This document shows, piece after piece, positions 1,421-33,901 of a DNA stretch of 40,745 nt (position 1 is the first letter of the stretch; each line of letters starts with the position of its first letter). Location of the stretch: positions 1 through 40,745 of IMG/VR virus record IMGVR_UViG_3300037427_000300; one strand, given 5' to 3'. The DNA comes from a virus. The notes beneath the pieces were generated by a model. That model saw nothing but the letters and a program-made list of their open reading frames with translations, was not told the DNA's origin and searched no databases. The translations under genes and the position numbers were made by a program.

Positions 1421-2428
1421 ATGGGTTCTATTAATCAAATAATCAATACTTCTGTTCAGATGTATAAGAAGTCGCCCAAGGTTGTCGTCGACATCGTTGG
1501 TAAGCCTGGGGAGGGTAAGAGCGACGCTTGTATACAGATTGGGCGGAAACTAGGGTTCGCAGATGATCGTATCCTAGTGGTGCATATCAATAACCATGAC
1601 GTCGTTGACTTCACGGGCGTCCCCAGTGTGACCGACGGAATGACTATCTTTAATCCATCAAAGATGTTCTACGATTTTCGTGAGGGTACTGGTGGGGGCT
1701 TGATTGTCCTTGAAGAATTACATCAATCGTCGTCGCATCACCAGACGTGGGCGGCAGGCTTCATGCTAGAGCGTAGGACACCATGTTTTGAGTTAGATAA
1801 AAATGTTAGCATCATTGCAACTGGTAATCGTGCCGAAGATCGGTCAGGGGCTAAGCCATTGTTAGGACACCTTAATGATAGAATGTATCATTTTGATGTT
1901 GAGACATCGCTTGACGACTGGTGCGAATGGGCGCTTGCACATGACGTAAATCCACTTGGTATCGCGTTTCTGAGACTACGACCTAATCTGTTAAATGATT
2001 ACGATCCCAACAGACGTAGTAACCCAACGCAGAGATCATGGACTAAGGTGTTTCAAGAAGTGCCTATGGATTTGCCAAGTGATCTTTATCTCATGGCATG
2101 TGAAGGAAAGGTTGGTGAGGGTGCGTCGGCTGAATGGGTTGCGGCTAAGGATATGATGGCGAAGATGCCTAGTATCGACGTTATTAGAATGCATCCCGAT
2201 ACGACGGAGACACCGAAAGAACCTGCCGTACGTTACGCAGTAGCTACGTCTCTGTCCGTGACATCTACTGTAGATAGCTTTGAAAGTGATATGAAGTATG
2301 TAACACGATTGCCAAAAGAATTTGCAGTTGTGTACTTAACTGACGCTCTCAAAATTAACCCTGCAATACAAACCACTAAGGCGTTTACAGACTATGCAGT
2401 TAAGAACGCTGATCTATTCAAATCATAG
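1421..2428 (+). CDS. MoxR/CobS-like AAA+ ATPase
   Basis: A 335-residue AAA+ ATPase. Visible motifs: Walker A GKPGEGKS (27-34), Walker B LIVLEE (94-99), sensor-1 ATGNR (133-137), and LNDR (151-154), which could supply an arginine finger. This is the MoxR/CobS style, whose members act as chaperone-like remodelling rings working with a VWA-domain partner. That partner appears to be the 3703-4875 product in the same operon, with the 2441-3487 protein between them. The ATG at 1421 follows GGAGG at ideal spacing; an upstream GTG in the promoter was rejected. CobS-like ATPases are sometimes named cobalt chelatase subunits in phages, but nothing here supports cobalamin synthesis. Confidence 0.85.
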   Translation: MGSINQIINTSVQMYKKSPKVVVDIVGKPGEGKSDACIQIGRKLGFADDRILVVHINNHDVVDFTGVPSVTDGMTIFNPSKMFYDFREGTGGGLIVLEELHQSSSHHQTWAAGFMLERRTPCFELDKNVSIIATGNRAEDRSGAKPLLGHLNDRMYHFDVETSLDDWCEWALAHDVNPLGIAFLRLRPNLLNDYDPNRRSNPTQRSWTKVFQEVPMDLPSDLYLMACEGKVGEGASAEWVAAKDMMAKMPSIDVIRMHPDTTETPKEPAVRYAVATSLSVTSTVDSFESDMKYVTRLPKEFAVVYLTDALKINPAIQTTKAFTDYAVKNADLFKS

Positions 2429-2440
2429 GGAGGACTATAA

Positions 2441-3487
2441 ATGAATATGTTATTACAACAAGCCTTGGCTGATGCGGTAAGATCGAGTGAACACGACTCA
2501 TCACCTGCGCCGTCTTCTCCTGCTGCTGCAAGCAACGACGCCACGAACGTCACAGATGTTATTACTGAGGGCCCTGAACAGGAACTACCAACTGAACAAC
2601 CCGTGCGTCAGTTAGTAGAGGTCAAGCCTCTTAACGAGAAAGCAATTCTTGTTACACTAAAGCGTGGTATGTATCGACCATATATTTCTGACGTGTCTGC
2701 GACAGAGGAGTATGGTGCAGGCACAGTTAACAAGCATTTGTTTGATGGTAGAGATAACCTAGTTAAGCGAACAGTTGCTAAGTTTACCGCGGTATATACT
2801 TACGTCAACGACAATACTGTCCCGTGGGCGGTAGGACAACGTATGTTAAACATGATGAACTGGAGTGATTTTACTACTGGTTTACGTGAACTTGTCGACG
2901 ATGCTCATGCGTCAGTAAATATTCTATGCCATAATTGGGATAGCGTATGGCGTAATGATCTTGCTCGCATACATCAAATCGGTATTGCGAAAGGTAATCC
3001 TGATCTTGCAAAAGAGAGCGACTACCCCGACGTAGATGATTTGCGGTCTCGTTTTTCAATCGACGTACAATATAGCCCGATACCCAAGGTTGATGACTTT
3101 GACCCACGTTTCGGCATGAGCGAAGAAGAGAAGTCGTCGTTGCAACGCCAGCTGGACGATGTGCAAACATCTGCATCAAACCATGTAATTGAACAGATGA
3201 TTAAGCCGTTAGGGGAAGCGGTTAAGAAACTGTCAGTACCTATTGGTACAGATGGCTCTGTGTTCAGAGATAGTCTGATTGACAATATGGTAGAAGTAGC
3301 TGACCGAATGAACCGAGTATGTCTGAGTGATGATCCATTAATTAGACAACCGATTGCTGAGTTAAACGCACTCGCTTCAGGGCTGGCAGGAAACAAGGAA
3401 GTCATACGACATAGTCCTAATGCTAGATCCCAAGCCAAGAATGATATTGAAAGCTTGATGGGTAGAATGAAAGGGTTGGTATTATGA
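2441..3487 (+). CDS. DUF3150-like partner of the AAA+/VWA module
   Basis: A 348-residue soluble protein starting behind AGGGAGGA. Residues about 15-65 are a low-complexity Ser/Pro/Ala/Glu linker. The remainder is mainly helical, with a coiled-coil-prone stretch around 220-260. Position (between the MoxR-like ATPase and the VWA/HExxH protein), size and helical character match DUF3150 proteins that accompany this pair in other phages and plasmids. The family match is from memory of context and style, not from an alignment. Function is unknown; it could bridge ATPase and VWA protein or act as their substrate. Its TGA overlaps the next ATG. Confidence 0.6.
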   Translation: MNMLLQQALADAVRSSEHDSSPAPSSPAAASNDATNVTDVITEGPEQELPTEQPVRQLVEVKPLNEKAILVTLKRGMYRPYISDVSATEEYGAGTVNKHLFDGRDNLVKRTVAKFTAVYTYVNDNTVPWAVGQRMLNMMNWSDFTTGLRELVDDAHASVNILCHNWDSVWRNDLARIHQIGIAKGNPDLAKESDYPDVDDLRSRFSIDVQYSPIPKVDDFDPRFGMSEEEKSSLQRQLDDVQTSASNHVIEQMIKPLGEAVKKLSVPIGTDGSVFRDSLIDNMVEVADRMNRVCLSDDPLIRQPIAELNALASGLAGNKEVIRHSPNARSQAKNDIESLMGRMKGLVL

Positions 3488-3651
3488 GTAAGTATAGTAA
3501 CTATCTTGTCGATCTTGAAGATTTATTAGGTGGGCTTCTTGAAGATATGACAAACGAGCAAGCCTTAGTAGAAGTAGAAAAACTACGTGGCACAATAGCT
3601 AGAAACGACGCAGAATCCATACTTGATAGATGGGAAAGAGAATTTGCGTAA
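3484..3651 (+). CDS. Small acidic helical protein
   Basis: A 55-residue protein beginning with MSKYSNYLVDLEDLLG; its ATG overlaps the preceding TGA (ATGA), which implies translational coupling. It is acidic and probably all helical (heptad-like leucines through the middle, ending in ILDRWEREFA). No family recognised. Its place inside the AAA+/VWA operon suggests an accessory role there, by context only. Confidence 0.6.
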   Translation: MSKYSNYLVDLEDLLGGLLEDMTNEQALVEVEKLRGTIARNDAESILDRWEREFA

Positions 3652-3702
3652 TTAAATTTAAATGCTAACCTAAACAATACTGATAATAATTGGAGGAATA
3701 TA

Positions 3703-4875
3703 ATGTTTGACCAAGCGTCAATGGAGAAACTTTCTCCCGAACAACAGAAAGAAATAGAGAAGAAGGTTATCAAGGCTAAAGCACGATTGATACTTGATCA
3801 TCCTTTCTTTGGTATGGCAGTGAGCAAGCGTGATATTATTTATTGTTATAATACACCAACCGCGTCGATGGATGCTGTGGGGCAAATGCGTCTGAATCCG
3901 CATTTTGTTTCGAAGCTTAGTCAACGGAACGTAATCTTTCTGTTAGCCCATGAGGCGATGCATTTTATGTTGTCTCACTCAACAAGGCGTGGTGTACGTG
4001 ATCCTGAGATGTGGAACATAGCCGCTGATCAGGTTATCAACGACACTCTTATCGATGCGAAAGTTGGTGACTTCATAGAAGGGGGTTGCCACTTTGATGG
4101 GGCAAGAGATAAATCTACTGAAGAACTGTACAATGATCCTCCGCCCGACGACGGAAGCGGATCTGGAGGCGGTATCGGCCTCGACATTGGTGACGCAGTA
4201 GATGAACACGGCAACCCTCTTGACGAGAGTAAGATCAAAGAACTAGAAGCCAAAGCAAAAGTTGAGGCAATACAATGTTCTGCCCAAGCTAAGAAACGTG
4301 GTAAGTTGCCTGCTTCACTCGAGCGTATGATCGACGAGTTAGTTCATGTAAAGACGCCTTGGTATGATATACTTGAGCGTTATTTTAATGGAAAGATTAG
4401 AGATGGTTGGTCATGGAAAAGACCTAATCGTAGGTTCGTCGGTCGTGGCATTTACCTCCCAGGCGTCGACTACACGCCACGGATGGGGAAATTTGTAGCT
4501 ATTATCGATACATCATGTTCGATTGGACAACCAGAGTTAAATGTATTTGGTGGACACATTAATAGGATAATCGAGCAATGTAATCCTGAGTCTATAACTG
4601 TTATATACTGTGATGCGGAAGTAAATCATGTTGATACGTATGAGCCTGAAGATCTTCCCTTAAAGCTGACTCCACATGGAGGTGGGGGTACGGCTTTCAA
4701 ACCTGCGTTCGACTACATTGACGAACATAATTTAGACCCCGAGATCGTTGTATATTTAACTGATGGCTACGGCGATCAGAACGATTTCACATCCAAGCAC
4801 GACACAATCTGGCTTACTACTGCATGCTCTGAGTTTGAGTGGGGAACAGTAGTTGAGTTTGACGTCGATGCGTAA
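3703..4875 (+). CDS. Metallopeptidase-like (DUF2201-type) and VWA domain protein
   Basis: A 390-residue two-domain protein. The N-terminal half has an HExxH zinc-site motif (HEAMH, 83-87) followed by a WNIAAD motif (104-109), typical of DUF2201 putative metallopeptidases. A glycine/aspartate-rich linker follows at about 146-165. The C-terminal half is a VWA-like domain with a full MIDAS set: DTSCS (269-273), Thr330 in GGGGT, and Asp354 in LTDG. In known MoxR/VWA systems the VWA partner docks substrates on the ATPase ring, so with the 1421-2428 ATPase it likely forms a remodelling or proteolytic machine. The start follows GGAGGAATATA. Whether the zinc site is active is unknown. Confidence 0.85.
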   Translation: MFDQASMEKLSPEQQKEIEKKVIKAKARLILDHPFFGMAVSKRDIIYCYNTPTASMDAVGQMRLNPHFVSKLSQRNVIFLLAHEAMHFMLSHSTRRGVRDPEMWNIAADQVINDTLIDAKVGDFIEGGCHFDGARDKSTEELYNDPPPDDGSGSGGGIGLDIGDAVDEHGNPLDESKIKELEAKAKVEAIQCSAQAKKRGKLPASLERMIDELVHVKTPWYDILERYFNGKIRDGWSWKRPNRRFVGRGIYLPGVDYTPRMGKFVAIIDTSCSIGQPELNVFGGHINRIIEQCNPESITVIYCDAEVNHVDTYEPEDLPLKLTPHGGGGTAFKPAFDYIDEHNLDPEIVVYLTDGYGDQNDFTSKHDTIWLTTACSEFEWGTVVEFDVDA

Positions 4876-4899: not shown

Positions 4900-5604
4900 A
4901 TGGCTTATGTAAGAAAGACTGATACACTTGTGCATGAGATAGTAAGTAGAGTACAAGATATGTCACGAACTGCACAAAAACCCTACGACGTGGATACTGT
5001 AGTAGAAGGTAGTGTAGAATATAAAGCTATCTTAGATGCAGTAGAAACTGTTTCGTGGAAAAGCGCACCTGAGTTAAAAGATAAGATGCCTAAGTCTTGG
5101 GTAAAGCGTTTAACAAAAGCAGAAAAGGTTGAGGTTAAAATCCCTGCACCTAAATCTTGCCCTTCAAGTGGTTCGTTAAAGGTACAAATAGAGAATAAAG
5201 GTAAGCCTTTTTTCTTATCACCTCTAAACTTTGACCCGAATGCAAATAGTTATTATAGCTACCCATCCATATCTTTTGCTGAAGATGATATACCGCCAGT
5301 ATTAATGACATGGTTTCAGAGTGGTAAAGCTAATGAAGCGACTAAAGCAGGCATAAAAACTAAATTTGAGAAAGTTGAAGAACAACTCAAAAAGTTCATG
5401 GGGCAACATGCATCCTTGAATACGGCGATCAAAGCTATGCCAGAGATAGAGCATTATGTGCCTGAAGAATATATACAGAAACTTCATGCGCCGTCGCCAC
5501 CACGTGGTAAAGCGTCTGCTCCTGCGGTTAAAGAGGAATTAGATATAGACGTTGACGAGCTAACGAGTGCGGCAGTTGCACATCAAATCGCTTCAGCAGG
5601 TTAA
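4900..5604 (+). CDS. Hypothetical protein downstream of the AAA+/VWA module
   Basis: A 234-residue soluble protein behind a clear AAAGGAG. The N-terminal part is lysine-rich. The centre (about 95-140) looks beta-rich with many aromatics, followed by a helical stretch at 150-190. The tail is proline/alanine-rich and then acidic (ELDIDVDEL), resembling interaction tails. No family recognised. It directly follows the VWA gene with a 24-base gap and may be part of the same module, for instance as a substrate or adaptor; that is inference. Confidence 0.55.
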   Translation: MAYVRKTDTLVHEIVSRVQDMSRTAQKPYDVDTVVEGSVEYKAILDAVETVSWKSAPELKDKMPKSWVKRLTKAEKVEVKIPAPKSCPSSGSLKVQIENKGKPFFLSPLNFDPNANSYYSYPSISFAEDDIPPVLMTWFQSGKANEATKAGIKTKFEKVEEQLKKFMGQHASLNTAIKAMPEIEHYVPEEYIQKLHAPSPPRGKASAPAVKEELDIDVDELTSAAVAHQIASAG

Positions 5605-17638: not shown

Positions 17639-20600
17639 TTAATCTGCTAACTTTGCTTGTTCTTTTTTCTCAAGTTTTGCGCGCGTCCGTGGAGCTTTAA
17701 TTAACGCACTTACACTTTGTCGTTTCAACACTCCAGAAACATTATTAAAAAACGGCCGAACACGGTCTTTACCTTTTTGGAGCTCTCGCCAATCTTCACG
17801 TAATTCTTTCATAGCGCTTCCATCACGAGCTCTGAACGCCTCAATATAGTTTTTACGAATTTTCGAAGACTCGTTACTAAAGTATTGCTCTAACTCATAC
17901 TGCTGACCTCTTGTCCATTTAATACGATTAACCTCAGTGGAAGGAATACCCATTGCGTTTACAAGAAGGCTGTATGTATCTATTTCACGCGGATCAACAA
18001 GAACAGTTCCCGCCCGAGTAGTGTAACCTTCTGTTGCTAATCTATAACTTTCTGCAACAGATCGAATACCTTTAGGCACTGAATATTCAATGCCTTTTAA
18101 AAGGTCTCCCTGCTTATAGTACTCCGCTGCTCGGAAAAAATTAACACCAGTAGTACCTGCAGGGCCAACAAGCCCCATTAAAATATCTTGAGCACCCGCT
18201 TCACCAGAAGTAAAATCAGTATATGGTAGAGGATGGAATATTTTTGACTGATTCAATTTAGTGCTTAAGTCTAAACCAAACGTAGTAAATACCCCACGAG
18301 AAAGAATTGTTCCAAGTACTCCATCATCTATATTCTCTTTAATCCATCGTTCCATATCTTGTGGTTCATCATCCCCCCCTGGGGTTAACATTGTAGCAAC
18401 CCAGAAAGCAAACCCAGAAAGCGGAACCCCTGTTGCTCCTGCGCCCATTGCTGCGTGCGCTAACGAATACCCTAAAACTCGTCTTCCGGCGGCTTTCATT
18501 TGTGGTGTTTCCCCACGGAAAGTCTGATTAAATCCATTGGTGTAGTGCCATGCCATAAGTAATTGATACTTACGATACTGTGTTACAATTTTTGGCGCCC
18601 ACTTAATTAATAACGGAGCGTCGAGTTGAGAAAAATCACCCTGTGTATCTTCAACAACGGCTATTGCGTATTCTTCCGCAGTCATATTCATTTCAGCAAG
18701 TTTAGTAGGGTTGGCTTTTGCCATATCATACGCCGCTACTGCAGTAGAAATACGATTTTGGGCTTCAACAAACTTGGCTACATTGTATAACTTAGAAGTT
18801 ATAGTCCCTAAAGTATCTGACGCTCTATTAAGACTTTCGTACCCTGTGTTGAAACGATCAAATGTTCCATCTTCCTCCATACCTTGGTCGATTAAGTTTC
18901 TATTCCGCATTATTTCAAGAATACGTTTGTATTGCGGAGCTACTTTCGTAAGATCAATATTAAGTTCTAGGTTTGCTCCTATCCCAGTAGCTTGTCTAGC
19001 TTGCTTATAACCTCGGAATAACCCACTCCACGTACCAGTGTAATCAGCAAAGTCTCCTGCAATACGTGGAACAGTCACCATAGCAGGCTGAGTTGCGTTT
19101 GTTAGGTGGTATCCGACACTTGTAAGCAACATATACACCGAGTTCATAACTGTAATACGATCTTGTATCGGAGTTTCAGCTCGGGTTAACATGCTATTGT
19201 AGTGACGAGATATTGTATTAAACGCGAATTGTTTCTCACGATCAACATCATTATTTTCGTCAACAACTGAGTTTTCTGCGTCTCTAAAAGCGGTGTTAAT
19301 TTCAGCACCATTTTCCATATGTGCTATCATTGTAGCTTCTGAAGTAGCTTGGCTTAGAAACGACCGCACCATATTTGGTTCGTAACCCGCTCGATTTAAA
19401 CGTCTTGCCCCTGATGTTCTTGCGCTACGCTCATCTAAAGATTGAAAATACATATTTTTTATCATAGCTCTAAACGCAGTCTTTGCAGTCGCATCCATAT
19501 CTGCATCTTTACTTGCAGCAAGAGCCCCCATGACTTTTTCGTATACTTCTGGGCTAGAAACTCTGTCACTATCGTGCGATGGTTTTCTTTCTGACCAACC
19601 TGAAAATATAAATTTTGATTTATTTGCCTCCGCAAATTGTTTAGCCATAGCAGAAGTATCAAAGAAACTTATTACATAATGATCAGGATCGGATTTTAGC
19701 TTTTCGTACTCGTCTTTTGCTTTTTTAGACGCCCCTTTTACTTTTGCCTTTGTCTCCGCTTGTTTAAGCCTAGCAGATTTTAATTCTCCGACATAGTTTC
19801 CAAACCTTTTAAGCGGCGCATATGGCCCTTCTAAACCTGCGTCTGAAAAGAAAGAACCCCCCACACCTAACATTTTAGCTAGAGCAACCTTACGTTGGCG
19901 CATGCGTTCTCCGTGCGCAAAAATATTTGCTACCAGCTGTTTTTCTTCTTGGGAAAACTTATTAAACTGTTCTTGTTTGGTTGGGTCTATTTTTACTTGT
20001 TTATCAACAAACACATCAGGGTGAAACTCTTTAGGATCGTATCCCCATTTCTGATCAAAAGTAGACTCTCCAAGAAATTTATTAACAACAGCTAGTCGTC
20101 CTTTACCAAGTTCCCTAACTTGTTTTCTAATAGGCTGAAACAAGCGTTTAATTTCATTTCTTGTCTCTTCTATTTTTAGCATGCCATCGTACCAACGCCC
20201 GAGAGCTGGCATTATATCTCTGTTCTCCCGAACAATCTGATGAACAAATTTCACAGACCGAGAAGCGATACGCCCTACTTCAGCGGCGTTATCATATAAA
20301 CTAAGGGCAGTTTTCCCCCCTAAATTTTCTCCTACCCAATCACGCGCTACACCAAGATTAGTATTTGCTACTGCAGACGGAGATGTAAAAGGTTTTTGTA
20401 TATGTGTTGGCGTTTGACCATGCATTAACTCGATACGCGCGGCGCCAAATGCTAAATCAACAACGTTTTGTGTAGTTAAATCCGCAGTTTCTATTCCTAA
20501 CTTATTCAATGCAGCTACAAATAAGTCTTTAAGTTGTTGTAAGAACTGCCCAATAGAGCTATCTACACTTGGTTCAATCCCCGCAAGTGACGCTTCTTCT

Positions 20601-23600
20601 AAGAAATAAGCAATAGCTTCAGAAATAATTTCACTATCAGATAAGTTACCATCTTTATTTGCAAAATTAACTCGCGCCATAGCTCTTCGTGCGATTTTAC
20701 TTTCAGTTGAATTGTTGTTTACATCAGCCCAATCAAAAATTTGTTGCGCAAGTTCAAGTTGTTGATCAGGATCAATAATACTGTCAATGCCGACGTGCCC
20801 GCCAACCTCGTGCATAAATGCTGCTAACTCACCGCCTTCAGGAATACGATCTAGTATAAAATGTGCATGCGGATCGCCTGCATTATCTTCAGTTACAAAC
20901 CCAAACGGTTTGCTAGCTTGTATTTTTTTGACGTCTGCGGGAGGAACCGTTCCGTTGTTAATAGCTGCGATAGCTTCTGCTTCCGTATTAAATACATGAA
21001 TACGTATATTTGATTTCTCACCTGTTAACTTTTTAATTTGTGTTTCAAGCGCATTACGGGTTGTTGGTTTAGTTATTTTTGAGGTATTAGTTAATTGAGT
21101 GTTAGAAAATTTAGCTTTAGCCAAAGCCTTTTGCGCAACTGTAGGCTCAAATATTTCTTGAGTAACCCCAAGTTTTGTAGGCTTATCCCCAGTTTTTGTA
21201 AGTACTTTCTTTTTCCTAGTTTCTATCGGGACGTTGACTCTGTTTTCTCCCGCTGTGAAATCTCCAGTGTTTCCTGTTGCTGGGGCGTTAGTTTGAGGCC
21301 CGCTTTGAGCATTTTCTTGTAGATCGGCACTAGTTTGGTTTTGATCAGTTGTTTGAACTTCAGTTCGTCCGACTTGGTTATCTTGATTGTCATTGTTATT
21401 CCCTTCTGTAGTTGGCCCTGTGTCTGTAAGTTGCCGTAAGCTCTCCGCTTTATTAACTACTGTATTAAAATCATCTTCAGTTCGTTGTGACCCAAGAAAT
21501 TTGAATATAGTATGCATCCAATCAATTTTATTTTCCATTGACAAGTCATCGTAGCTTGGGCCATCTTTAGCTGTGTTTTCTGTCCACGTTTGGCGTAAAA
21601 GTTTATCTGACCTTTCTACAGCAAACCTCGCATTTTTTACTTCTTGTAATATAAAATCTGCTTGCTCGTTCTCAAGATCAGCGGCGGTCTTATTGTCAAT
21701 AGCGTTAATAGCCTCATTTGACATGCCTGCTTTTTTAAAAGCTTTCTTTTCTTCCTGTGTTACTTTGGTTTTAGATCCCGCACCTTCAGTTTGAGTTCCA
21801 CCAGGCGAGTTAACAGTTGCGACTTCACCCCCCGTTTCAGAAAGAAATTGTTGGGTTTGCTGGTTTGTAAAAGTTTCACCAACTCCAGTTGTAATCCCTG
21901 CTTGCGCAAGTGCTTCACGTACTTGTTCTGGGGTAAATATCTTTTTAAATTCTCTTACAAAATTAGTAGCCGATGTTTTTGCGCTACTTGGATTTTTAAT
22001 ACCAGAACGTTTTCTCAATTCAGGAGTATTAAAAGTTATTTCAAAAGTTCTTGAGCCAGTTTTTCTAGGATCTTTTTTAACTTTTCTTAAACCTATAGCA
22101 GAAAGTTTTTTACCTTTTGCTTTTTCCTCTGGGGTTAATGTTGTTTTTCTTGGGTCATTTAATTCTTGTTGAGCATCAAACTGTACATTAATAAGATCAT
22201 CTGCCGTTTTATTATTTATGGCTTCTAAGAATGTATCGTAAACTTGGTTTTGTTGTGGAGTTAATTTACTTCTTAATTCTTCATTATTTAATAACGCGTT
22301 AACAGGTTTCTCTGTTGCCGTCGTTACTGCTGCCCCCGGGAGTTGCGTCGTCGTTGCTGCTGCGGCCTGGGGCTGCGCTGTCGCTGTTACTGGTGGCTTT
22401 GGACTAACAATTTTATCAAGCTGTGTGTTAAACTTTTTAACATTAAACTTCTTAGCGTTAATTTCAGCGGCTAAATCAGCGTAATCAGGGTTGTTAATAA
22501 AATCTTCGCCGAACAAGGCTTTAGCTTTTGCTATCGCAGTCTTTTGAGTGCGCACTGGCATAGCCATAGCTGTTTGCGTCTTTTCATCTTGCGTCTGTTG
22601 ATCAAAGTCTAATTCTATCTGACCTTCGTTCTTAACTTTCTCAGCTACACGACGCGAAAGTTCTGCTTCATACGCAGTATTAAATCCACTTGCTTGTTCT
22701 TCTTTTACGACTTTGATAAATTCTTTTCTGGCAGTTTTAATATCATCATCGTCAAGTAGACCACGAGGATTATCTTCGGTTGGGGTATTTAAAATTTCAT
22801 TAAATCGTTTTCCCAACTCGGAGGTTTTATCATCAATAGACAATTCTAAACCTGCGTCCATCTGCTTCTTAAATTCTTTTTTAGAAAATTCTAAAGCCTC
22901 GACTCGCAAAACTTCATTTTCAGCGTCTTGTTGTTCTTTCTGATTTTCTGCCTCTTTTTCTGCTTGGGCGCGAACTTGTTCTTGCTGAGCTTTATACTGT
23001 TCGACTGAATTAGGATCGTTAAGATCAAGCCCTAATTGTTCCCCAACTTCAGTTTTAACTTCTTCTTTAATTTCATTTAAGTCAGTCTTACTCTGTTGCG
23101 GACGTGTTAAAACCCCACCTGCAATACCAAGTTGCCCACCACCAATGACACCTGCAGCTACTGCTGTAGGATCAAAAAATCGAGCTTCTTCAGCAGAGTA
23201 CCCTGCTCCTAAGTCTTCAAGACCTGTTTGTATTCCTTCAGTAACACCTTCAACAATTGCGCCTTGCGTTCCGCGCACAGCTGCAGTACCTAAGCGACTT
23301 TTTCTAGCGGTCTTTATTAAATCTTTGGCAGGCCCAAATCTTGCCAAACCAAGTGTTGCAACGTCTGAAAGACCTTCTGCCATACCCGCAAGAGTACCGT
23401 ACCCATAGACAGGAGCAGTATTTATACTATCGACACTTCCACCTTCTGCAAGAGTTTTGTCAACTGCACCCCCATAAGTGGCTCCAAGTTCAGTTGTTAT
23501 AGCTTGCCCACCAATACCTGTGTAGCCACCGATTTTGCCACCTTTGTTAATTGATTTTTTAGACGCATCAGAAAGAAGATCCTTCCCCGCCCGTTTTATA

Positions 23601-24064
23601 CCTTGTTTGACAATTTGTTTGCCTATTAAGCTTCCTAGCCCTCCTGATGCAAGAGCTTGAGCACCTTGTGCTAACCCGTAACCAGAATAGTATTGCGTAA
23701 AATCAAGAGCATCACCGAAACTATTTATACCTTCTATTGTGTCTGTTGGGCGAGCTCTTTGCGCAACTTGAGCCATATTTTTTTGGTAGCCTCGGATCAT
23801 ATTATTTCTGGCGTCATCAGCGCCAAAGGAATCAGCAACTAATGCTCCTGCGGCGTACCCCATAGCTTGTGTAGAGTCGATTGCAGAATCTATACCTCGA
23901 CCAAAATCGCCTTGATCTGGGTCGTAAACACCAAGCATCTCTCCTACTTCTTGCCTGTCACGCCCTGTTGAATCCGCAAGCCAGAGCGCTACTTCTTCAT
24001 CACTGTATCCATATTTATCTAAATCTGGAAATTCTTTTCGAATTCTTTGAATTGCTTCGGACAT
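17639..24064 (-). CDS. Giant internal virion (ejection) protein, gp16-like, with HEVGGH motif
   Basis: A 2141-residue protein, last of three internal-virion-like genes and so comparable in position to T7 gp16. About 60-330 is Ala/Gly-rich with amphipathic or hydrophobic runs. About 330-1010 is charged, Gln/Glu/Lys-rich and low-complexity. At 1085-1090 there is HEVGGH, with Glu1145 and Glu1149 in SEIISEAIAYF downstream, a zincin-like arrangement. The C-terminal third is large, helical, with hydrophobic stretches near 1865-1895, and resembles large polyvalent protein domains of phages. No lytic transglycosylase (SLT) motif was seen, unlike T7 gp16. It is likely injected with the DNA to form a channel, with a possible protease activity. 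Confidence 0.75.
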   Translation of the reverse strand: MSEAIQRIRKEFPDLDKYGYSDEEVALWLADSTGRDRQEVGEMLGVYDPDQGDFGRGIDSAIDSTQAMGYAAGALVADSFGADDARNNMIRGYQKNMAQVAQRARPTDTIEGINSFGDALDFTQYYSGYGLAQGAQALASGGLGSLIGKQIVKQGIKRAGKDLLSDASKKSINKGGKIGGYTGIGGQAITTELGATYGGAVDKTLAEGGSVDSINTAPVYGYGTLAGMAEGLSDVATLGLARFGPAKDLIKTARKSRLGTAAVRGTQGAIVEGVTEGIQTGLEDLGAGYSAEEARFFDPTAVAAGVIGGGQLGIAGGVLTRPQQSKTDLNEIKEEVKTEVGEQLGLDLNDPNSVEQYKAQQEQVRAQAEKEAENQKEQQDAENEVLRVEALEFSKKEFKKQMDAGLELSIDDKTSELGKRFNEILNTPTEDNPRGLLDDDDIKTARKEFIKVVKEEQASGFNTAYEAELSRRVAEKVKNEGQIELDFDQQTQDEKTQTAMAMPVRTQKTAIAKAKALFGEDFINNPDYADLAAEINAKKFNVKKFNTQLDKIVSPKPPVTATAQPQAAAATTTQLPGAAVTTATEKPVNALLNNEELRSKLTPQQNQVYDTFLEAINNKTADDLINVQFDAQQELNDPRKTTLTPEEKAKGKKLSAIGLRKVKKDPRKTGSRTFEITFNTPELRKRSGIKNPSSAKTSATNFVREFKKIFTPEQVREALAQAGITTGVGETFTNQQTQQFLSETGGEVATVNSPGGTQTEGAGSKTKVTQEEKKAFKKAGMSNEAINAIDNKTAADLENEQADFILQEVKNARFAVERSDKLLRQTWTENTAKDGPSYDDLSMENKIDWMHTIFKFLGSQRTEDDFNTVVNKAESLRQLTDTGPTTEGNNNDNQDNQVGRTEVQTTDQNQTSADLQENAQSGPQTNAPATGNTGDFTAGENRVNVPIETRKKKVLTKTGDKPTKLGVTQEIFEPTVAQKALAKAKFSNTQLTNTSKITKPTTRNALETQIKKLTGEKSNIRIHVFNTEAEAIAAINNGTVPPADVKKIQASKPFGFVTEDNAGDPHAHFILDRIPEGGELAAFMHEVGGHVGIDSIIDPDQQLELAQQIFDWADVNNNSTESKIARRAMARVNFANKDGNLSDSEIISEAIAYFLEEASLAGIEPSVDSSIGQFLQQLKDLFVAALNKLGIETADLTTQNVVDLAFGAARIELMHGQTPTHIQKPFTSPSAVANTNLGVARDWVGENLGGKTALSLYDNAAEVGRIASRSVKFVHQIVRENRDIMPALGRWYDGMLKIEETRNEIKRLFQPIRKQVRELGKGRLAVVNKFLGESTFDQKWGYDPKEFHPDVFVDKQVKIDPTKQEQFNKFSQEEKQLVANIFAHGERMRQRKVALAKMLGVGGSFFSDAGLEGPYAPLKRFGNYVGELKSARLKQAETKAKVKGASKKAKDEYEKLKSDPDHYVISFFDTSAMAKQFAEANKSKFIFSGWSERKPSHDSDRVSSPEVYEKVMGALAASKDADMDATAKTAFRAMIKNMYFQSLDERSARTSGARRLNRAGYEPNMVRSFLSQATSEATMIAHMENGAEINTAFRDAENSVVDENNDVDREKQFAFNTISRHYNSMLTRAETPIQDRITVMNSVYMLLTSVGYHLTNATQPAMVTVPRIAGDFADYTGTWSGLFRGYKQARQATGIGANLELNIDLTKVAPQYKRILEIMRNRNLIDQGMEEDGTFDRFNTGYESLNRASDTLGTITSKLYNVAKFVEAQNRISTAVAAYDMAKANPTKLAEMNMTAEEYAIAVVEDTQGDFSQLDAPLLIKWAPKIVTQYRKYQLLMAWHYTNGFNQTFRGETPQMKAAGRRVLGYSLAHAAMGAGATGVPLSGFAFWVATMLTPGGDDEPQDMERWIKENIDDGVLGTILSRGVFTTFGLDLSTKLNQSKIFHPLPYTDFTSGEAGAQDILMGLVGPAGTTGVNFFRAAEYYKQGDLLKGIEYSVPKGIRSVAESYRLATEGYTTRAGTVLVDPREIDTYSLLVNAMGIPSTEVNRIKWTRGQQYELEQYFSNESSKIRKNYIEAFRARDGSAMKELREDWRELQKGKDRVRPFFNNVSGVLKRQSVSALIKAPRTRAKLEKKEQAKLAD

Positions 24065-24073
24065 ATTTAAGCT

Positions 24074-26329
24074 CTACCTGTCTTTTAGTAAATCAGCAAC
24101 TAATTTCCGTAAGGCTTCTATTTGTATTTCTCGTGCATCATTTCGTTTTTTAAGCAGCCCTGCTTTATCCATTCCTCTGGCGGGGCCAGTCATATTGCTT
24201 TCTATTTCAGCAATAACGATATTAAGAATGCCTGTAGGATCTTCGCCAAAAGCGTTTGCTATCTGCTGCGCTTTTTCTTGTTCTTCTAGGGCGTTCTTCC
24301 TTGCGGGGCCCTTTGCGAGTGGCTTAGTAGCATCCGCATCAACCTTCTCCAAAAACTTTTGTAGGTCTTCTGCCGTTATCGGGGTATCCTTTTTGTCTTT
24401 TATGTCTTCTAAAAATTCTTTAGCCGCGTCTAATTTAGTTCTAGTCGAAATCAAAACTCCAGGTTTGTACTTCGCAATAAGAGTGGAGTTTTCTTCAAGG
24501 TAAGATTCCAAATCATCTATTGACATAGCATTTTCTGAATCTGGTTGCAGAGAATTATTCAAATTATTAATAACCGCCTCCGCACTAAGCGATTCTTGTT
24601 CAGTTTTAGGGGCATTCAAGTCGACAACAGGAGTTACTTTCGGGCCTACTTCAGAATTATTGTTCTTAGCTGTATCAACTAACTCTTGTTCATTCATCAT
24701 CTGAACCATTTGAGTATACGCTTCGGGGTTATCTTTTAAAGCTAATGCTAAAGCTAGTTGTTTTTCATATCTTGTAGACTTCTTATTTGTTAATATTGAC
24801 GTTGCCCATTGATCCATAGTCAAAGGTTTTTTTGCTAAAGCAGCTTTAGATTGCGCGTTACTAAACTGTGTTAATGCTTCTTTATACTTTATATCTGCTA
24901 AACTCTTAGAGTACTCCAACAGACTAGCAGGGTCTGAAGCGGCGTAAAGATCCTGAATAAACGCTTTTTCGTCAGGCCCTTTAGCTATTGTACGAACAAC
25001 TTCTGTTTCTTGCCCGCCAGGGCCAGCGGGTCTAGTTTCAACCATTTCAAACCCCCCATCTTCAGTTTCTCGTATCTGAACCCCGAATTTATCTCCATTA
25101 TGTTCATCTAAAACTCTCATAGCTCCGCGTGCACCATCTGTTTGCATAGCGTCATTAAGTTTCGCTTTCATTAACAAAGAAGTATTCATAATTTCCCAAA
25201 GTTCATGCTCGCCATAATTTTTCTCAAGCTGCATAGCATATTCAGGGTCAATCGTTTTTAAACCCTCTATAAGTCGGTACATGGAAGTTGGATCTTCTGC
25301 GTTAGCTGTTTTGCGCCATTCCTCTATGTAAGTGTTAATCCTTAATGATTTCTCAGCCAACAATTTTTGCTCTTGGGAGCTAAGTAATTCAGTTTCTGAC
25401 CGAGTTATCCCAGTTTGAACTTGGTTTTTCATAACGTTCTCATCTGTAGAAATTGCAGCAAGCACCTGAGAATTTGCAAGTAATGCATTAGAGTTATTTA
25501 CATCCGTCAGTAGTTGGTTTTTTGCTATTTCAAATGTCCCAGGGTCTTGTGCTATCGCTAACTCAATTTCACTCATTGTCTTAGTTCGTTTTATCTTAGC
25601 TAATTCGTTACCGATATAGTTGTCTTGATATTCTGGGCTCTCTAAAACAGCACGGTTTATTTCAGATTCCACGAACTTTCTTTTATTTTCTGCTGTATCT
25701 GCTAAACCTTTAGAATTTAAGTAGTTCTTATATGTATCAGAGCTAAAATAGTCTGCCTGAGCACTTGCCTGAGCGGCATTTTTTTCTTGCTCAGCTATTT
25801 TACTTGCAGGAAAAGATTCATCCTCATATGCTTTTGCTAGTCCTATATTTTCTGCTGTTTCCGCACCGAACTTAGCTTTAGCAGCGACTACTTCTTCCTC
25901 TTGGCTTAAACCTCTTATTTTTGTAGCTAATTCTCTTGATTTTGTGTTAGCTACGTTAAGACCTGTTCGAGATCGAGTATTAGCCATATCAACTTTCATT
26001 TTCTGAGTTTTTCCAAGCCCCCCTTGCCAAACTCGTTCATCATAAGTGTCAGTTAAGTAATCAGTTTGAAGTTTATTTTGCCCTAGTGTTTCAACACCCA
26101 TACGCATTCGTAGAGCTTCCATAGGATCACCCCACTTTTGCTCAGCCGCGGCGTAGTCATCCGTTCTTGCACGATCAAGAGCTACACCTGATAGCTTATT
26201 ACCTTCCTCGTCTTCATAGTCTTTAATCGCAATACGGCCTGCGTCAAATGCCTGCCCAAGTTGAGTTCCAGCGTTATAAACAGCGTTAAATGCGTCTCCA
26301 AACTGTTTCCATCTATTGACTCTAGCCAT
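24074..26329 (-). CDS. Internal virion protein, gp15-like
   Basis: A 751-residue protein that is nearly all helical, Ala/Glu/Lys/Gln-rich, with long coiled-coil-like stretches and no enzymatic motif. Size and position between the gp14-like and giant proteins match T7 gp15, which forms part of the ejection tube. Sequence similarity cannot be claimed by eye. The ATG overlaps the end of the upstream gene by one base (TAATG), implying coupled translation. Confidence 0.65.
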   Translation of the reverse strand: MARVNRWKQFGDAFNAVYNAGTQLGQAFDAGRIAIKDYEDEEGNKLSGVALDRARTDDYAAAEQKWGDPMEALRMRMGVETLGQNKLQTDYLTDTYDERVWQGGLGKTQKMKVDMANTRSRTGLNVANTKSRELATKIRGLSQEEEVVAAKAKFGAETAENIGLAKAYEDESFPASKIAEQEKNAAQASAQADYFSSDTYKNYLNSKGLADTAENKRKFVESEINRAVLESPEYQDNYIGNELAKIKRTKTMSEIELAIAQDPGTFEIAKNQLLTDVNNSNALLANSQVLAAISTDENVMKNQVQTGITRSETELLSSQEQKLLAEKSLRINTYIEEWRKTANAEDPTSMYRLIEGLKTIDPEYAMQLEKNYGEHELWEIMNTSLLMKAKLNDAMQTDGARGAMRVLDEHNGDKFGVQIRETEDGGFEMVETRPAGPGGQETEVVRTIAKGPDEKAFIQDLYAASDPASLLEYSKSLADIKYKEALTQFSNAQSKAALAKKPLTMDQWATSILTNKKSTRYEKQLALALALKDNPEAYTQMVQMMNEQELVDTAKNNNSEVGPKVTPVVDLNAPKTEQESLSAEAVINNLNNSLQPDSENAMSIDDLESYLEENSTLIAKYKPGVLISTRTKLDAAKEFLEDIKDKKDTPITAEDLQKFLEKVDADATKPLAKGPARKNALEEQEKAQQIANAFGEDPTGILNIVIAEIESNMTGPARGMDKAGLLKKRNDAREIQIEALRKLVADLLKDR

Positions 26330-27372
26330 TACGCCATCTCCTTAAATTCTATACCGAGAGCACCGTAGTCGACTGCTTTAAATCCTAAATCTGTATCGAC
26401 AACTGCATCTGGGTAACTAAGTTCTACTTCATCGGCCATTACGCCACGGAAACGACGTTCGGTATCTCCAACATAATTAAATTCATAAAGCGTTAATGCT
26501 GTGCGCTGATCGACTCCGACTTCTATAATATTTTCTTTAATACGTCGGTCTGACATTGTAAAAATAGATCCAAATCCTCCGCCTTTAGCAAGCGCACCTG
26601 CACCGCCAAGAGCAGCACCAAGATCACCCAGAAAACTATCATTAGAGTTAATATATGTTTGTGTTTGTGAGTTAAGCACACTACTTAACCCGCTAAGTTG
26701 CATTTTTTGACCTGAGCCTATTGTATTAGCCCCTGCAACCATATTACCCATGTAATTCTGACCTGCTGACTGCGCACTTTGACCGCCTGCCGAACCTGCT
26801 TGGCTTGCTCCGCCGTACGCCGCAATAGAAGCTCCTGCTAATCCACGACCAAGTCCAGCCGCGTCTAGTTTTCTTGCATACCCCATCTGTTCTGCTTGGT
26901 TTCGAGTGTTCGTCATAGCGTTTGCGCGTACAGCCGCTTGTTGTAACCCCGACGCGTTTTGCATTCCTGCAAATCTTCCAGAATTAGGGTTTGCCCCCAT
27001 TGACGCCATAGCTCTTTGATTCTGTTGTTGTGATATACCGAACGCCCTTCCAGCGTCCGCCGCAGCTTGCGATGCAAGATCATTTCGATATGCTTCGGTG
27101 TTCATCCGTTGCGCATCTTGTACAATAGAACGCTCAAGAGGGCGGTATGTATCTTTTTGATAATTATAATAATCTCTAGCTTGCGCCATTTGTTCGTTTT
27201 GGGCGTCTACTTGTTGCCGTGCTATACCTTCAAGGATAGGGGCAGAACGATCATATTGTTGTTTTGCAAAAGCTAATTGTTCCCGACCTAATCCAGCTTG
27301 AATACGAGCTGCCTCCGCGCTAGCTTCTGCTAGTGGAGCGTAGTCTGGAGCGGCAATTTTGTTTTTTCCCAT
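26329..27372 (-). CDS. Internal virion protein (gp14-like) with C-terminal S74 chaperone
   Basis: A 347-residue protein. Residues 1-270 are Ala/Gln/Gly-rich and helical, then Gly-rich, like T7 gp14-type internal core proteins. Residues about 274-341 form an intramolecular chaperone (peptidase S74): SDRRIKENI at 274-282 with the Ser-Asp cleavage pair, LYEFNY (295-300), GVMADEV (310-316) and the closing FKAVDY. S74 domains usually trimerise tail fibres and cut themselves off, so one on an internal protein is unusual. The start follows AGAGGAAAG and overlaps the acetyltransferase gene by 43 bases. Confidence 0.8.
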   Translation of the reverse strand: MGKNKIAAPDYAPLAEASAEAARIQAGLGREQLAFAKQQYDRSAPILEGIARQQVDAQNEQMAQARDYYNYQKDTYRPLERSIVQDAQRMNTEAYRNDLASQAAADAGRAFGISQQQNQRAMASMGANPNSGRFAGMQNASGLQQAAVRANAMTNTRNQAEQMGYARKLDAAGLGRGLAGASIAAYGGASQAGSAGGQSAQSAGQNYMGNMVAGANTIGSGQKMQLSGLSSVLNSQTQTYINSNDSFLGDLGAALGGAGALAKGGGFGSIFTMSDRRIKENIIEVGVDQRTALTLYEFNYVGDTERRFRGVMADEVELSYPDAVVDTDLGFKAVDYGALGIEFKEMA

Positions 27373-29656: not shown

Positions 29657-31332
29657 TAAGACAGATCTCCTATCTTAACTCGAAGCGTTGACCCGTCGTA
29701 AACCTCAATTTTTGTAGATGATATTTTTAATCTGTCACCTGAAGATGCATTAGCTACATCTAAAGTTCCACGAAACGTTCCACTATTAAATTCTGCGTTA
29801 CCTGATTTTTCAATTTTCCATCCAGCAGACCCAGAATAATTGGTAGACTGTATAGTGTTAGCAATCTTAGCATCAGTAATTGTGCCGTCTTCAATAAACG
29901 CTGTTTTTATGTACACATTGTTGTTTACTACCTGAAAAGGTGTACTGCCATTGCCATTACCACCATTAGAAATGTAAAAAGAGTTAACATCAAATATCGC
30001 TATTCCAATACCCCGTAATTGAATAGCTGGGTTAGATATTGAAGATATTCCAATATTATTTCCATCTGAATCTGTATTATAATTAACAGTTCCTCCTAAA
30101 GAAATATCCGAGCCAGCGATCTTGTTGCCGTAAAAATCAACCGTATTTAAAAGGCCAGAATTAATTACATCTGCTGTAAGAGTTCCAAGTTTTGCTTGTG
30201 TAATTGATGCGTCTTTTATTATAGCCGTGTCGATAATTACGTTTCCGCTATCTACAATAAACGGAATACTGGCTTTGGCTATTTTTGTACCAGCATTAGA
30301 AGCATCCGAGGGCGCAAGATAATTTAACTCTCCATCGTTAACAATTTTTAAAGCAGGAAAACTAGAGTTTATAGGAGTATTACCAGAAATAGTTGTGTTA
30401 TCTACTATTGTGTAAGATTGTGTTGAATCCACATCAGGATGATTTAGAAAAACTATACTGTCGCCTATGTTAAAACCTGAAGGAACAGCAGTTTGGTAAC
30501 CAAATTGTATCCACATAAAATTACCAGCGGCAATACTTCCTTCGGCTGTCGTACTATATACCGAAACTTTAGCAGTTGATGGATTAATAATACTAAAACG
30601 GTCAGAACGAATAATAAATTCGCTTACAATATCACCATTTACATTTTCTGAAGCTAAACCAAATCCAGAGACATAACCGTCGTTATCAATTTTAACAGTA
30701 TATTGAGCTTTTAGAGGATCAGCTTCTGTTTTTATTCTTGCATTGACAGACCCGCTGACGGTATCGGCTGCATCAACTAAATCAATTCGAGTACTAAGAG
30801 AATTAGCAAGGTTACTAGCAGTAATCTCCCCAGTAAGCACTGATAGCAAGTACGCAGCGTCCTGCCCAGTCGTGCCTTGAGTTCCGTTTGTAGCATTGAA
30901 AGCACTTACTCCTCCATTTCTATTTACGTTTCTTACCCAGTAATATCGTGTAGCTGACCCACCAATATTGTGGGAAAAGTTATTTCCAGCTGTCATTCCA
31001 ACAAGCACAGCATCACCTATAACATCAGATGTATGCGCCCAAATTTCAGTATAGGAATGACCTTTATATGTTGGAGCATTCCAACTAACTATAATACTAG
31101 CAAGCGCACCTGATGCTGTTAAGTTCGAGGGAGCTCTTGCGGTTTCTACAGTTCCGGCAATAGGAGCAATATCTCCCGTTGTTCCTTGAGCTACAAGTCC
31201 TGTTGCAATTAGCTGTCGTGCAGTAACAACGGCATCTGCTCCTCCACCGTCTAGTGCCTCACGAACACGTTGTACAAACTGTTGTAAATCACGGGGTAGG
31301 GGAGAAGATACTGTTGGTAAATTATTAGCCAC
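29656..31332 (-). CDS. Tail protein with fibronectin type III domain
   Basis: A 558-residue protein beginning at a GTG whose bases overlap the upstream stop codon (GTGGCTAA); GGAG lies at good spacing. A longer frame from 31410 would run inside the nozzle gene and was rejected. Residues about 67-146 are an FN3 domain (APSNLTASG...SWNAPTY...YYWVRNVN). The C-terminal region has repeated beta elements ending in NSGTFRGTLDV and LRVKIGDLS, like central fibre or host-specificity proteins. Likely a tail tip or fibre component. Confidence 0.75.
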   Translation of the reverse strand: MANNLPTVSSPLPRDLQQFVQRVREALDGGGADAVVTARQLIATGLVAQGTTGDIAPIAGTVETARAPSNLTASGALASIIVSWNAPTYKGHSYTEIWAHTSDVIGDAVLVGMTAGNNFSHNIGGSATRYYWVRNVNRNGGVSAFNATNGTQGTTGQDAAYLLSVLTGEITASNLANSLSTRIDLVDAADTVSGSVNARIKTEADPLKAQYTVKIDNDGYVSGFGLASENVNGDIVSEFIIRSDRFSIINPSTAKVSVYSTTAEGSIAAGNFMWIQFGYQTAVPSGFNIGDSIVFLNHPDVDSTQSYTIVDNTTISGNTPINSSFPALKIVNDGELNYLAPSDASNAGTKIAKASIPFIVDSGNVIIDTAIIKDASITQAKLGTLTADVINSGLLNTVDFYGNKIAGSDISLGGTVNYNTDSDGNNIGISSISNPAIQLRGIGIAIFDVNSFYISNGGNGNGSTPFQVVNNNVYIKTAFIEDGTITDAKIANTIQSTNYSGSAGWKIEKSGNAEFNSGTFRGTLDVANASSGDRLKISSTKIEVYDGSTLRVKIGDLS

Positions 31333-33901
31333 TAGCAAGCTCCGACATAGAATTTGCAATAGAAAGCGAAAATACTTCTTTTGACCCTTCGACTTGCATT
31401 TCCCAGTCACGCCCGACTTTAGCAGGGAGTCTAAAAGGATCTCGATTTTGCACAGTTTGAGTGTGAATTAAGGTGTTATCCGCATAAAATTTTAAAGTCA
31501 TAGGATACGCTTCAGCTTCTAACTGAGCACAAGAAAACCCCATAACTTGAGGCATAGTAAACTTTTTAGATTTCCATGTATAAGACTTCGATGCACCACC
31601 CGCCCAAGGTTTAACTTTGTTTCCACTATCGTCAATAACAAGAAAAAGTTTATCTAAAAGTAAATCATGGTATCCAGCATCTGCATAAATATCATGGAGA
31701 ATAAATTGTCCGCTACGAACATCAAAAACAAACCCACCACTCTGTGTACCGTTATTATAAAAAGCTATATACTGATTGTCTTGTTGGTAGGCGTGGATTG
31801 ACTCTGGTTTAAAAAACGTCTGCCATTGCTGGTAATCAAACAAACCTTCGGTAACAATCCTAGACCCGCCTGGAGAAAGAAGCATCAACCCATCAGGTGC
31901 GGCGTATAACACTCCCCCCATAAGACTTACAATACTTCGTTTAGAAACACAGGCTTGCTCAAGATCAGATTTTACCACCGCCATATTAGCAGGGTGCGTG
32001 CCTTGAATAAGATAAGGTGTGCCTTTGGTAAGAACCGCAAGCGTTGTATCCATACGACCTAACCCTACAACGGGGTAATCAAGCGTTTGTATATAATTTT
32101 CAGGCCAAGCATGTGGATGATATGGATCGCAAAAGTAAACATCACGCCCTGTAAATCCCGCCATAATACCATTTGGTAAATTAAGTAACCCTGTAAGCGT
32201 TTGGGGTGGTTCATTCCACGTTAGCGTAGGAAGTTCTTCCCCTAGATCATCTGGTTCAACATCATCGGTAAAATTAGCATCTGCTATCGGAATCTCTTTT
32301 ACAAATAGATAAATTCCTGAAACTGAACGATATATTCGACGGTGCGTAGTTATGTATCCTGCGCTTGGAACCGAACCAAAACCTGATAATGAAACAGTTT
32401 GACCGTCACGTACATCAACAGAACCTGACGCAGCTGACGGGGCAGATTCAAACTCAAAACCTGATTCTTTATTTACAAAAGTATAAGCATAAACACGCGT
32501 CTCTAATGTTTCATCTTCATCTGCGTAACCTGTACTCTGTTGCTCCGTGTATACAGCTGTATTTGGGTAAGTTCCTCCACGTATTTCTAAAGATGCAGAA
32601 GTACCTACAGCAGTTGTTTCAATAACCGCAAATGGATTAATTGCTCCATATACTTGAGTTCCAATCCCGTAGGACGAAAGCGTAGCAAATGTGCTTACAT
32701 ACGCAGTAGTAGAAACAGGTAAGATAGTAGCAGCGCCGTTAACAGTAAGCCTTAAATATTTTCCCTCTAAGTTATCAACGTCTGTTTGCGTTACAAATAA
32801 TCTAGCGGGCCCTGCTGACTCAGAACCACTACTTGTAAGTTCAGTTACAGCAACATCATTGGCTTTACGGCGGTAAGTTATAGTTCCACTTGCACCTGTA
32901 CCACTTTGATCTGGAGTTAAAACAACACATGAGCCATAAGCAGTTGCTTCGACGTGGGTTCCTAGCTGTGTATCAAGATACGTAGCAAATGCAGACGCTG
33001 TTAAAGTCCCGGAAAAAGTGTAAGTTACATCATTTGCATGTGTTCCATTATTTGTACTGACAAATATTTTATCGCCAGAAGTAATTGAACCTATCTCAGA
33101 GTCATCAATAACAACAAAAGCCTCATTGTCAGACGTACCTGAAGCCGACAGATTGGGGTTAGTTTGCAAAGTAAACGTACCATCTGTATTTGGATTTGTT
33201 CCTGTTTGAAACTTAACAAAAAGTTTAGCCGCATCTCCAGTTCCAGTTGATTTTATTTCAACGCTCCCGCTTGTTTCTGTTGCAGTAACTGTAGACGAAA
33301 GCGCCGAATTTATAGCAGATGTAACACTAGTTGAAGTAATAGTTCCTGAAAGATTTACAGTTGTATAACTTGGAGTCCCCGAAGCTGTGGTACTAATTAA
33401 AACACCATGCGCTGTAGTTAAACTATCAATATGTTCCTCAGTAAGCATAATAAGTGCTGGGTGCGCTGTCGCAGTAAATGTATCTGCTGATGCAACAGGA
33501 GGAGAAGAAGGGATAGGTAGTCCTAAAGGTCTTGAATTTGCAGGGAAGTTAGACCCTGTTAGTGCAATCGCATTGTAGGTAGCCTTTGGCCCACCATCAC
33601 CTGTAAAAAATGTCCACTCAGAAACATCACCTGCTATTTGTGAACGGCATACATCAACGTCAGACGTCCAGTGGAACCAGTAATTGTTTTCTGAGACAGT
33701 ATCTTGCCCGAAACGATATAAAGAATTAACAGTTCCAGTTTTAGCTAAAGTAACTATAGACCCGCCAACATCCGAAAGAGGTTGAATACTTCCTTGAAAT
33801 ACAGGACAATTCATAGCTGTTTGTGCTTGATTGTCTTGCAAATATCTCGCCGGAACGATAGGCGCTATCCCCCCAAATGATTTGATGGAAAAGACAGCCA
33901 T
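31325..33901 (-). CDS. Tail nozzle-like protein (T7 gp12-like)
   Basis: An 858-residue structural protein. The N-terminus (FSIKSFGGIAPIVPARYLQD, then QAQTAMNCPVFQGSIQPL) resembles the start of T7 gp12, the tail nozzle, in spacing and key residues (SIK, GGI, N, G.L). Residues about 150-480 are Thr/Ser/Gly-rich beta repeats. The C-terminal part, with GRDVYFCDPYHPHAWPEN and later short blade-like repeats, looks like a beta-propeller. The start follows AAGGAGG. The homology call is by eye only, but its place downstream of the lysis genes and before fibre proteins fits. Confidence 0.7.
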   Translation of the reverse strand: MAVFSIKSFGGIAPIVPARYLQDNQAQTAMNCPVFQGSIQPLSDVGGSIVTLAKTGTVNSLYRFGQDTVSENNYWFHWTSDVDVCRSQIAGDVSEWTFFTGDGGPKATYNAIALTGSNFPANSRPLGLPIPSSPPVASADTFTATAHPALIMLTEEHIDSLTTAHGVLISTTASGTPSYTTVNLSGTITSTSVTSAINSALSSTVTATETSGSVEIKSTGTGDAAKLFVKFQTGTNPNTDGTFTLQTNPNLSASGTSDNEAFVVIDDSEIGSITSGDKIFVSTNNGTHANDVTYTFSGTLTASAFATYLDTQLGTHVEATAYGSCVVLTPDQSGTGASGTITYRRKANDVAVTELTSSGSESAGPARLFVTQTDVDNLEGKYLRLTVNGAATILPVSTTAYVSTFATLSSYGIGTQVYGAINPFAVIETTAVGTSASLEIRGGTYPNTAVYTEQQSTGYADEDETLETRVYAYTFVNKESGFEFESAPSAASGSVDVRDGQTVSLSGFGSVPSAGYITTHRRIYRSVSGIYLFVKEIPIADANFTDDVEPDDLGEELPTLTWNEPPQTLTGLLNLPNGIMAGFTGRDVYFCDPYHPHAWPENYIQTLDYPVVGLGRMDTTLAVLTKGTPYLIQGTHPANMAVVKSDLEQACVSKRSIVSLMGGVLYAAPDGLMLLSPGGSRIVTEGLFDYQQWQTFFKPESIHAYQQDNQYIAFYNNGTQSGGFVFDVRSGQFILHDIYADAGYHDLLLDKLFLVIDDSGNKVKPWAGGASKSYTWKSKKFTMPQVMGFSCAQLEAEAYPMTLKFYADNTLIHTQTVQNRDPFRLPAKVGRDWEMQVEGSKEVFSLSIANSMSELASG

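Follow-up and report, generated by a model that had tools for sequence, protein, structure and literature searches.

A MoxR-class ATPase, a DUF3150-like protein and a metallopeptidase-like vWA protein as a candidate remodelling module among phage replication genes

We analysed a 40,745-base stretch of marine phage DNA (IMG/VR record IMGVR_UViG_3300037427_000300, hereafter the window), in which ORF calls place four plus-strand ORFs at 1421-4875, encoding an AAA+ ATPase, a middle protein, a 55-aa protein and a vWA protein. The features of this locus, with the evidence for each in brackets, are as follows.

1421..2428, + strand: MoxR-class AAA+ ATPase, 335 aa (PHROG 1297 and profile matches)
1499-1522, + strand: AAA+ Walker A, GKPGEGKS (sequence motif)
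1709-1717, + strand: AAA+ Walker B, LEE (sequence motif)
within 1421..2428, + strand: AAA+ sensor 1 N136, arginine finger R154 and sensor 2 R205 (conservation)
2441..3487, + strand: middle protein, 348 aa, DUF3150-like, proposed adaptor (homology and predicted structure)
3484..3651, + strand: 55-aa protein, ATGA-coupled (homologues; dN/dS 0.26-0.30)
3703..4875, + strand: DUF2201_N metallopeptidase-like plus vWA (DUF2201) protein, 390 aa, N4 gp25 family (Pfam, PHROG)
3949..3963, + strand: HEAMH (H83-H87), putative zinc-binding/catalytic motif (conservation; on helix 74-89)
3976..3978, + strand: H92, candidate third zinc ligand (invariant, 112/112)
4027..4029, + strand: D109, alternative third zinc ligand, on helix 101-118 (invariant, 112/112)
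4399..4485, + strand: predicted beta-hairpin 233-261 (SWxRPNRRF...YLP), candidate pore 'finger' (model strands)
4507..4521, + strand: MIDAS motif DTSCS, D269-S273 (D269, S271 and S273 in 112/112)
4690..4692, + strand: MIDAS T330 (112/112)
4762..4764, + strand: MIDAS D354 (111/112, one gap)
4900..5604, + strand: 234-aa protein, possible accessory (regularly downstream of the vWA gene)

A preliminary description of this DNA had read the four ORFs as consecutive genes behind one promoter-like site. The arrangement itself is real: GGAGG-type ribosome sites precede the AAA+, middle and vWA genes, and the ATG of the 55-aa ORF overlaps the TGA of the middle gene as ATGA. Compared with locus L029, dN/dS is 0.06 for the AAA+ gene, 0.11 for the middle gene and 0.09 for the vWA gene, and the 55-aa ORF is the least constrained of the four at 0.26-0.30 (0.30 against L029); all four ORFs are therefore under purifying selection. 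The promoter found no support, as a consensus scan lists no match in 1309-1420 and consensus sites are not above chance (16 against 18.2 +/- 4.2 in shuffled sequence). The 55-residue protein is indeed coupled to the middle gene, but its clear homologues are limited to close relatives, which marks it as a local addition.

The first protein matches PHROG 1297 ('ATPase') at 1.9e-58, and its best solved relatives by profile are Midasin (1.9e-22), MoxR 2r44 (3e-6) and CobS (1.5e-3), in agreement with the MoxR/CobS-like identity first proposed for it. A Pfam scan of the window protein itself gave no match, and AAA_5 was found in 26 of 46 relatives. The nucleotide motifs are intact: K33, N136, R154 and R205 are kept in all 108 relatives compared, and the acidic pair of Walker B, which is EE in the window protein, is EE, DE or DD among them.

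For the middle protein, the DUF3150-like label is borne out by several lines of evidence. It matches a cyanophage MinM2 'DUF3150 domain-containing protein' at 2e-6 (tblastn), and its predicted model (mean pLDDT 89.6) matches the viral DUF3150 protein A0A6J7WV52 in BFVD with an E-value of 9.1e-16 and TM-scores of 0.61/0.71. The Pfam family itself (PF11348) is matched by 4 of 62 homologues, at best 9e-4, and a Pfam scan of the window protein gave no match to it at the curated cut-off. A fold search against solved structures returned only generic helical-bundle matches. The model is mainly helical, as had been described, but short strands are present too. Between the middle and vWA proteins we detected no significant similarity (hhalign probability 6.4).

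The 390-aa protein combines PF13203 DUF2201_N (7e-42) with, further along the chain, PF09967 DUF2201 (3.5e-18), both above curated cut-offs, and matches PHROG 1314 at 1.3e-86. In its predicted model (mean pLDDT 89.9), vWA domains can be aligned with the C-terminal part at a Z-score of about 12, and Foldseek matches include NorD, in its complex with NorQ, and the MIDAS domain of MDN1. PHROG 1314 carries the label 'HNH endonuclease', which we rejected after Pfam found no HNH family at E<=0.1; RefSeq applies the same label to the family (NC_008720 gp25 and many other phage records), and it is probably a propagated misannotation. To assess conservation, we compared 112 distinct phage and plasmid relatives and a further 45 bacterial ones. 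H83, E84 and H87, the residues D269-T-S-C-S273, T330 and D354 had been placed exactly in the preliminary description and are near-invariant, the HExxH and MIDAS motifs being kept across 24-80% identity. N113 is likewise invariant in the 112 relatives.

This pattern bears on what the N-terminal domain does. One reading takes the HExxH domain to be a metal-binding or structural element instead of a protease, and the machine to insert a metal or assemble an enzyme in the manner of NorQD or CobST. The best-studied MoxR/vWA pairs are indeed metal-insertion or activation chaperones, NorQD itself inserting iron into nitric oxide reductase, and the third zinc ligand of the window protein is ambiguous between H92 and D109. 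In addition, Agrobacterium phage Atu_ph07 (L163:8271-9560), the only phage relative with HQxxH, keeps both histidines; judged from its sequence, its peptidase domain is a natural candidate for an inactive one, so some phages may do without catalysis. Against this, both histidines occur in all 112 phage and plasmid relatives and E84 in 111 of them, and HExxH is intact in 44 of 45 bacterial relatives, a retention of the glutamate that metal binding alone hardly explains. We regard the non-protease reading as quite doubtful.

The comparison with NorQ and NorD also suggests how the AAA+ and vWA proteins may meet. In both systems a MoxR-class AAA+ protein is paired with a vWA partner that has a finger hairpin, predicted in the case of the window protein, before the MIDAS strand, although the N-terminal domain of NorD, unlike that of the 390-aa protein, is not of the HExxH type. 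In NorQD, the vWA protein inserts its finger hairpin into the AAA+ pore; the proposal there is that the target is bound by the MIDAS and that a linker is stretched as ATP turnover makes the vWA domain rotate (PMC13036017, PMC9976466). In the window protein, strands are predicted at 233-241, 253-261 and 264-269, the last of which joins the hairpin to the MIDAS aspartate, and hairpin residues N242, R243, R244, F245, Y251 and P253 are conserved at 93% or more. Since hairpin 233-261 lies in the same topological place as the NorD finger, we propose the same mode of docking.

To examine co-occurrence, we searched IMG/VR with the vWA protein, which gave at least 558 loci, and used the 80 closest of these, a set that is therefore biased towards kin. 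Within these best 80, the AAA+ gene lies upstream of the vWA gene in 41 of the 43 loci with at least 4.5 kb of upstream sequence, the middle gene lies between them in 37 of the same 43, and a DNA polymerase gene lies downstream in 46 of 47. The genes thus co-occur in related phages, the absence of which had been named beforehand as an argument against a module; gene order by itself is no proof of joint function. Of seven complete phage genomes, five have both the AAA+ and the vWA protein and two (Rollin and KPP25) have neither. The middle protein was detected in 1 of 10 phage genomes. N4, LIT1, Presley, PT15-A5, phiFa, S-TIM5, Munch, Atu_ph07 and others have the pair with no middle protein detected, and it is also absent from CRP-7 and phage G. 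Its absence from N4, CRP-7, S-TIM5, phage G and others means that it is not needed everywhere, and we therefore take the pair to be the core and the DUF3150 protein to be a lineage-specific third part.

The pair has been seen in phages before, so that what the preliminary description had presented as an undescribed phage version is in this respect already known. N4 gp24 and gp25, which belong to the schitovirus core, are likewise an AAA+ protein followed by a DUF2201_N-vWA protein (about 25% identity) and lie near DNA polymerase and helicase genes; N4 lacks the DUF3150-like middle protein. Both are middle-transcribed core genes of N4-like phages without assigned function, two of the five such genes in the 14-gene core (PMC4193335). 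The preprint on N4 lysis does not mention gp24 or gp25, and the genome-wide screens of the CRISPRi-ART paper covered T4, T5, SUSP1 and PTXU04 only. The same two proteins, with the N-terminal metallopeptidase domain fused, form a pair in group 2.2 jumbo phages such as Munch (Iyer and colleagues 2021, PMC7824862); the accessible part of that account mentions no third component and proposes virion assembly with proteolysis.

Virion assembly or processing, with structural proteins as the substrates that the machine folds and trims, is thus a published idea, drawn there by analogy with the tail chaperones of Acidianus two-tailed virus (PMC7824862). Several neighbourhoods are consistent with it: the pair is preceded at about 5 kb by a head-completion gene in Munch and at a few kb by virion-structure genes in S-TIM5, and virion genes lie near the gp24/25 homologues of RPP1. 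In the window, however, the plus strand up to about 17.1 kb carries genes for DNA polymerase A, an exonuclease, an endonuclease, a helicase, an ssDNA-binding protein and a primase/helicase, and beyond that point nearly all large ORFs, including virion, lysis and tail-fibre genes, are on the minus strand. The module therefore sits in the replication half, among replication genes, a point of difference from the jumbo-phage pair, and on the strand opposite to the identified virion genes (26329-27372, 31325-33901 and 36755-37939). Helicase and polymerase genes also adjoin the pair in LIT1, Presley and PT15-A5. This siting of phage copies beside DNA polymerase and helicase genes is new here. Together with the middle transcription of N4 gp24/25 (PMC4193335) and the bacterial and plasmid cassettes described next, which adjoin genes such as those for a retron reverse transcriptase, a T2SSE-type ATPase or RNase H, it leads us to consider a virion role unlikely.

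The cassette is not specific to phages but occurs on plasmids and in bacterial genomes too. The AAA+, middle and vWA genes are present on plasmids of Simplicispira, Cupriavidus and Rhodovastum, whose middle proteins match the phage-built profile at 5e-77, 9e-58 and 1.5e-62, respectively. A contig search with the plasmid proteins as query yielded 47 bacterial loci, comprising 30 with all three genes in order, 14 with the AAA-vWA pair only and three that are partial. The triads occur in Acidobacteria, Burkholderiales and others, and their genes often overlap or come close to it. For two of the triad loci we examined the neighbours, which include Sipho_Gp157 and RNase H in one and a T2SSE-type ATPase in the other; this suggests mobile elements. 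Six pair-only loci on MAG contigs (L207, L210, L211, L212, L213 and L220) have a retron-type reverse transcriptase adjoining and upstream of the pair, 975-1025 aa long where complete; the five scanned best match PADLOC retron RT_XIII/RT_X, at 1e-62 or better. No retron-type reverse transcriptase was found within the flank of any triad or phage locus. As a side observation, L210 and L211 additionally hold an N6/N4 DNA methylase (PF01555).

These settings raise a function in conflict, in which mobile elements would use the machine as weapon or shield (counter-defence, superinfection exclusion, plasmid/phage competition) by remodelling or cleaving a host-defence or rival protein. Besides the plasmid carriage and the six retron-linked loci, the DUF499 ATPase directly downstream of the pair in one of them (L211:7207-10296, from a Spirochaetales MAG; PADLOC DUF499 5.5e-179, HmaC-like) is BREX-related, and rIIA/rIIB genes neighbour the pair in PT15-A5. 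Known conflict systems of the MoxR-vWA ternary kind (PMC7159879) resemble the window module in joining MoxR and vWA proteins to a dedicated third protein, and peptidase domains can be fused to their vWA protein, as here. Their third component is VMAP or iSTAND, unlike the DUF3150-like protein; no VMAP or iSTAND model was matched when the middle protein and its relatives were scanned against Pfam, and fold comparison was not specific. PADLOC models gave no match to the module proteins themselves, and near-universal core status in N4-like phages with strong purifying selection looks more like a basic function. On balance, a conflict role seems improbable to us.

The explanation that we put forward instead, tentatively and as close to an even call, is that the module is a MoxR/vWA remodelling machine with a metallopeptidase-like domain and a separate adaptor, acting at the replication or takeover stage. 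By family resemblance and with its nucleotide motifs intact, the AAA+ protein would form an ATP-driven hexamer, on which the vWA protein would dock, as in NorQD, via the hairpin just before the MIDAS strand. The MIDAS, aided by the DUF3150-like middle protein, may then grip a specific target; ATP-driven twisting of the vWA finger would strain or open this target and offer it to the N-terminal HExxH domain, whose conserved residues suggest that it probably cuts once or a few times. A host or virion target may be processed, as the preliminary description had envisaged. Action would most likely fall in the stage of replication or host takeover, and not in virion assembly alone, because the phage copies sit with replication genes and plasmid and bacterial cassettes exist.

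Two elements appear to be new in addition to the address of the phage copies: the DUF3150-like middle protein as a recurrent third component, and the homologous cassettes in Burkholderiales and Acidobacteria and on plasmids, together with the pair beside a retron-type reverse transcriptase. In the literature searched we came across neither the DUF3150 third component nor the retron-linked pair, which is weak evidence of novelty. The recurrent third protein, the near-invariant HExxH and MIDAS, the replication-gene address and the plasmid and bacterial cassettes make a testable machine of what had been an orphan core module, and the same evidence weakens the assumption that virion assembly is its sole role. 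More speculatively, and with little expectation that the whole holds, MoxR, DUF3150 and metallopeptidase-vWA proteins might constitute a separate class of regulated, ATP-driven proteases that passes between phages, plasmids and bacteria. Bacteria would couple the form with two proteins to retron-type reverse transcriptases as a defence, and phages would use the form with three to cleave a protein of the host or of replication in takeover.

The 234-aa family lies downstream of the vWA gene in 54 of 60 related loci within the best 80 of at least 558. Pseudomonas phage Rollin, from which the module is absent, has a homologue in fragmentary form, so the protein is not a strict module component. 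In six loci (L056, L063, L071, L085, L093 and L099) a homologue lies between the AAA+ and vWA genes, and in five of these no middle protein was detected. This replacement led us to suspect a common origin of the 234-aa and middle proteins, which we rejected at an hhalign probability of 0.5. Elsewhere in the window, a strong intrinsic-terminator-like hairpin with a T run lies upstream of the early genes (243-271, + strand), and a 2141-aa ORF (17639-24064, - strand) probably encodes a very large internal virion protein.
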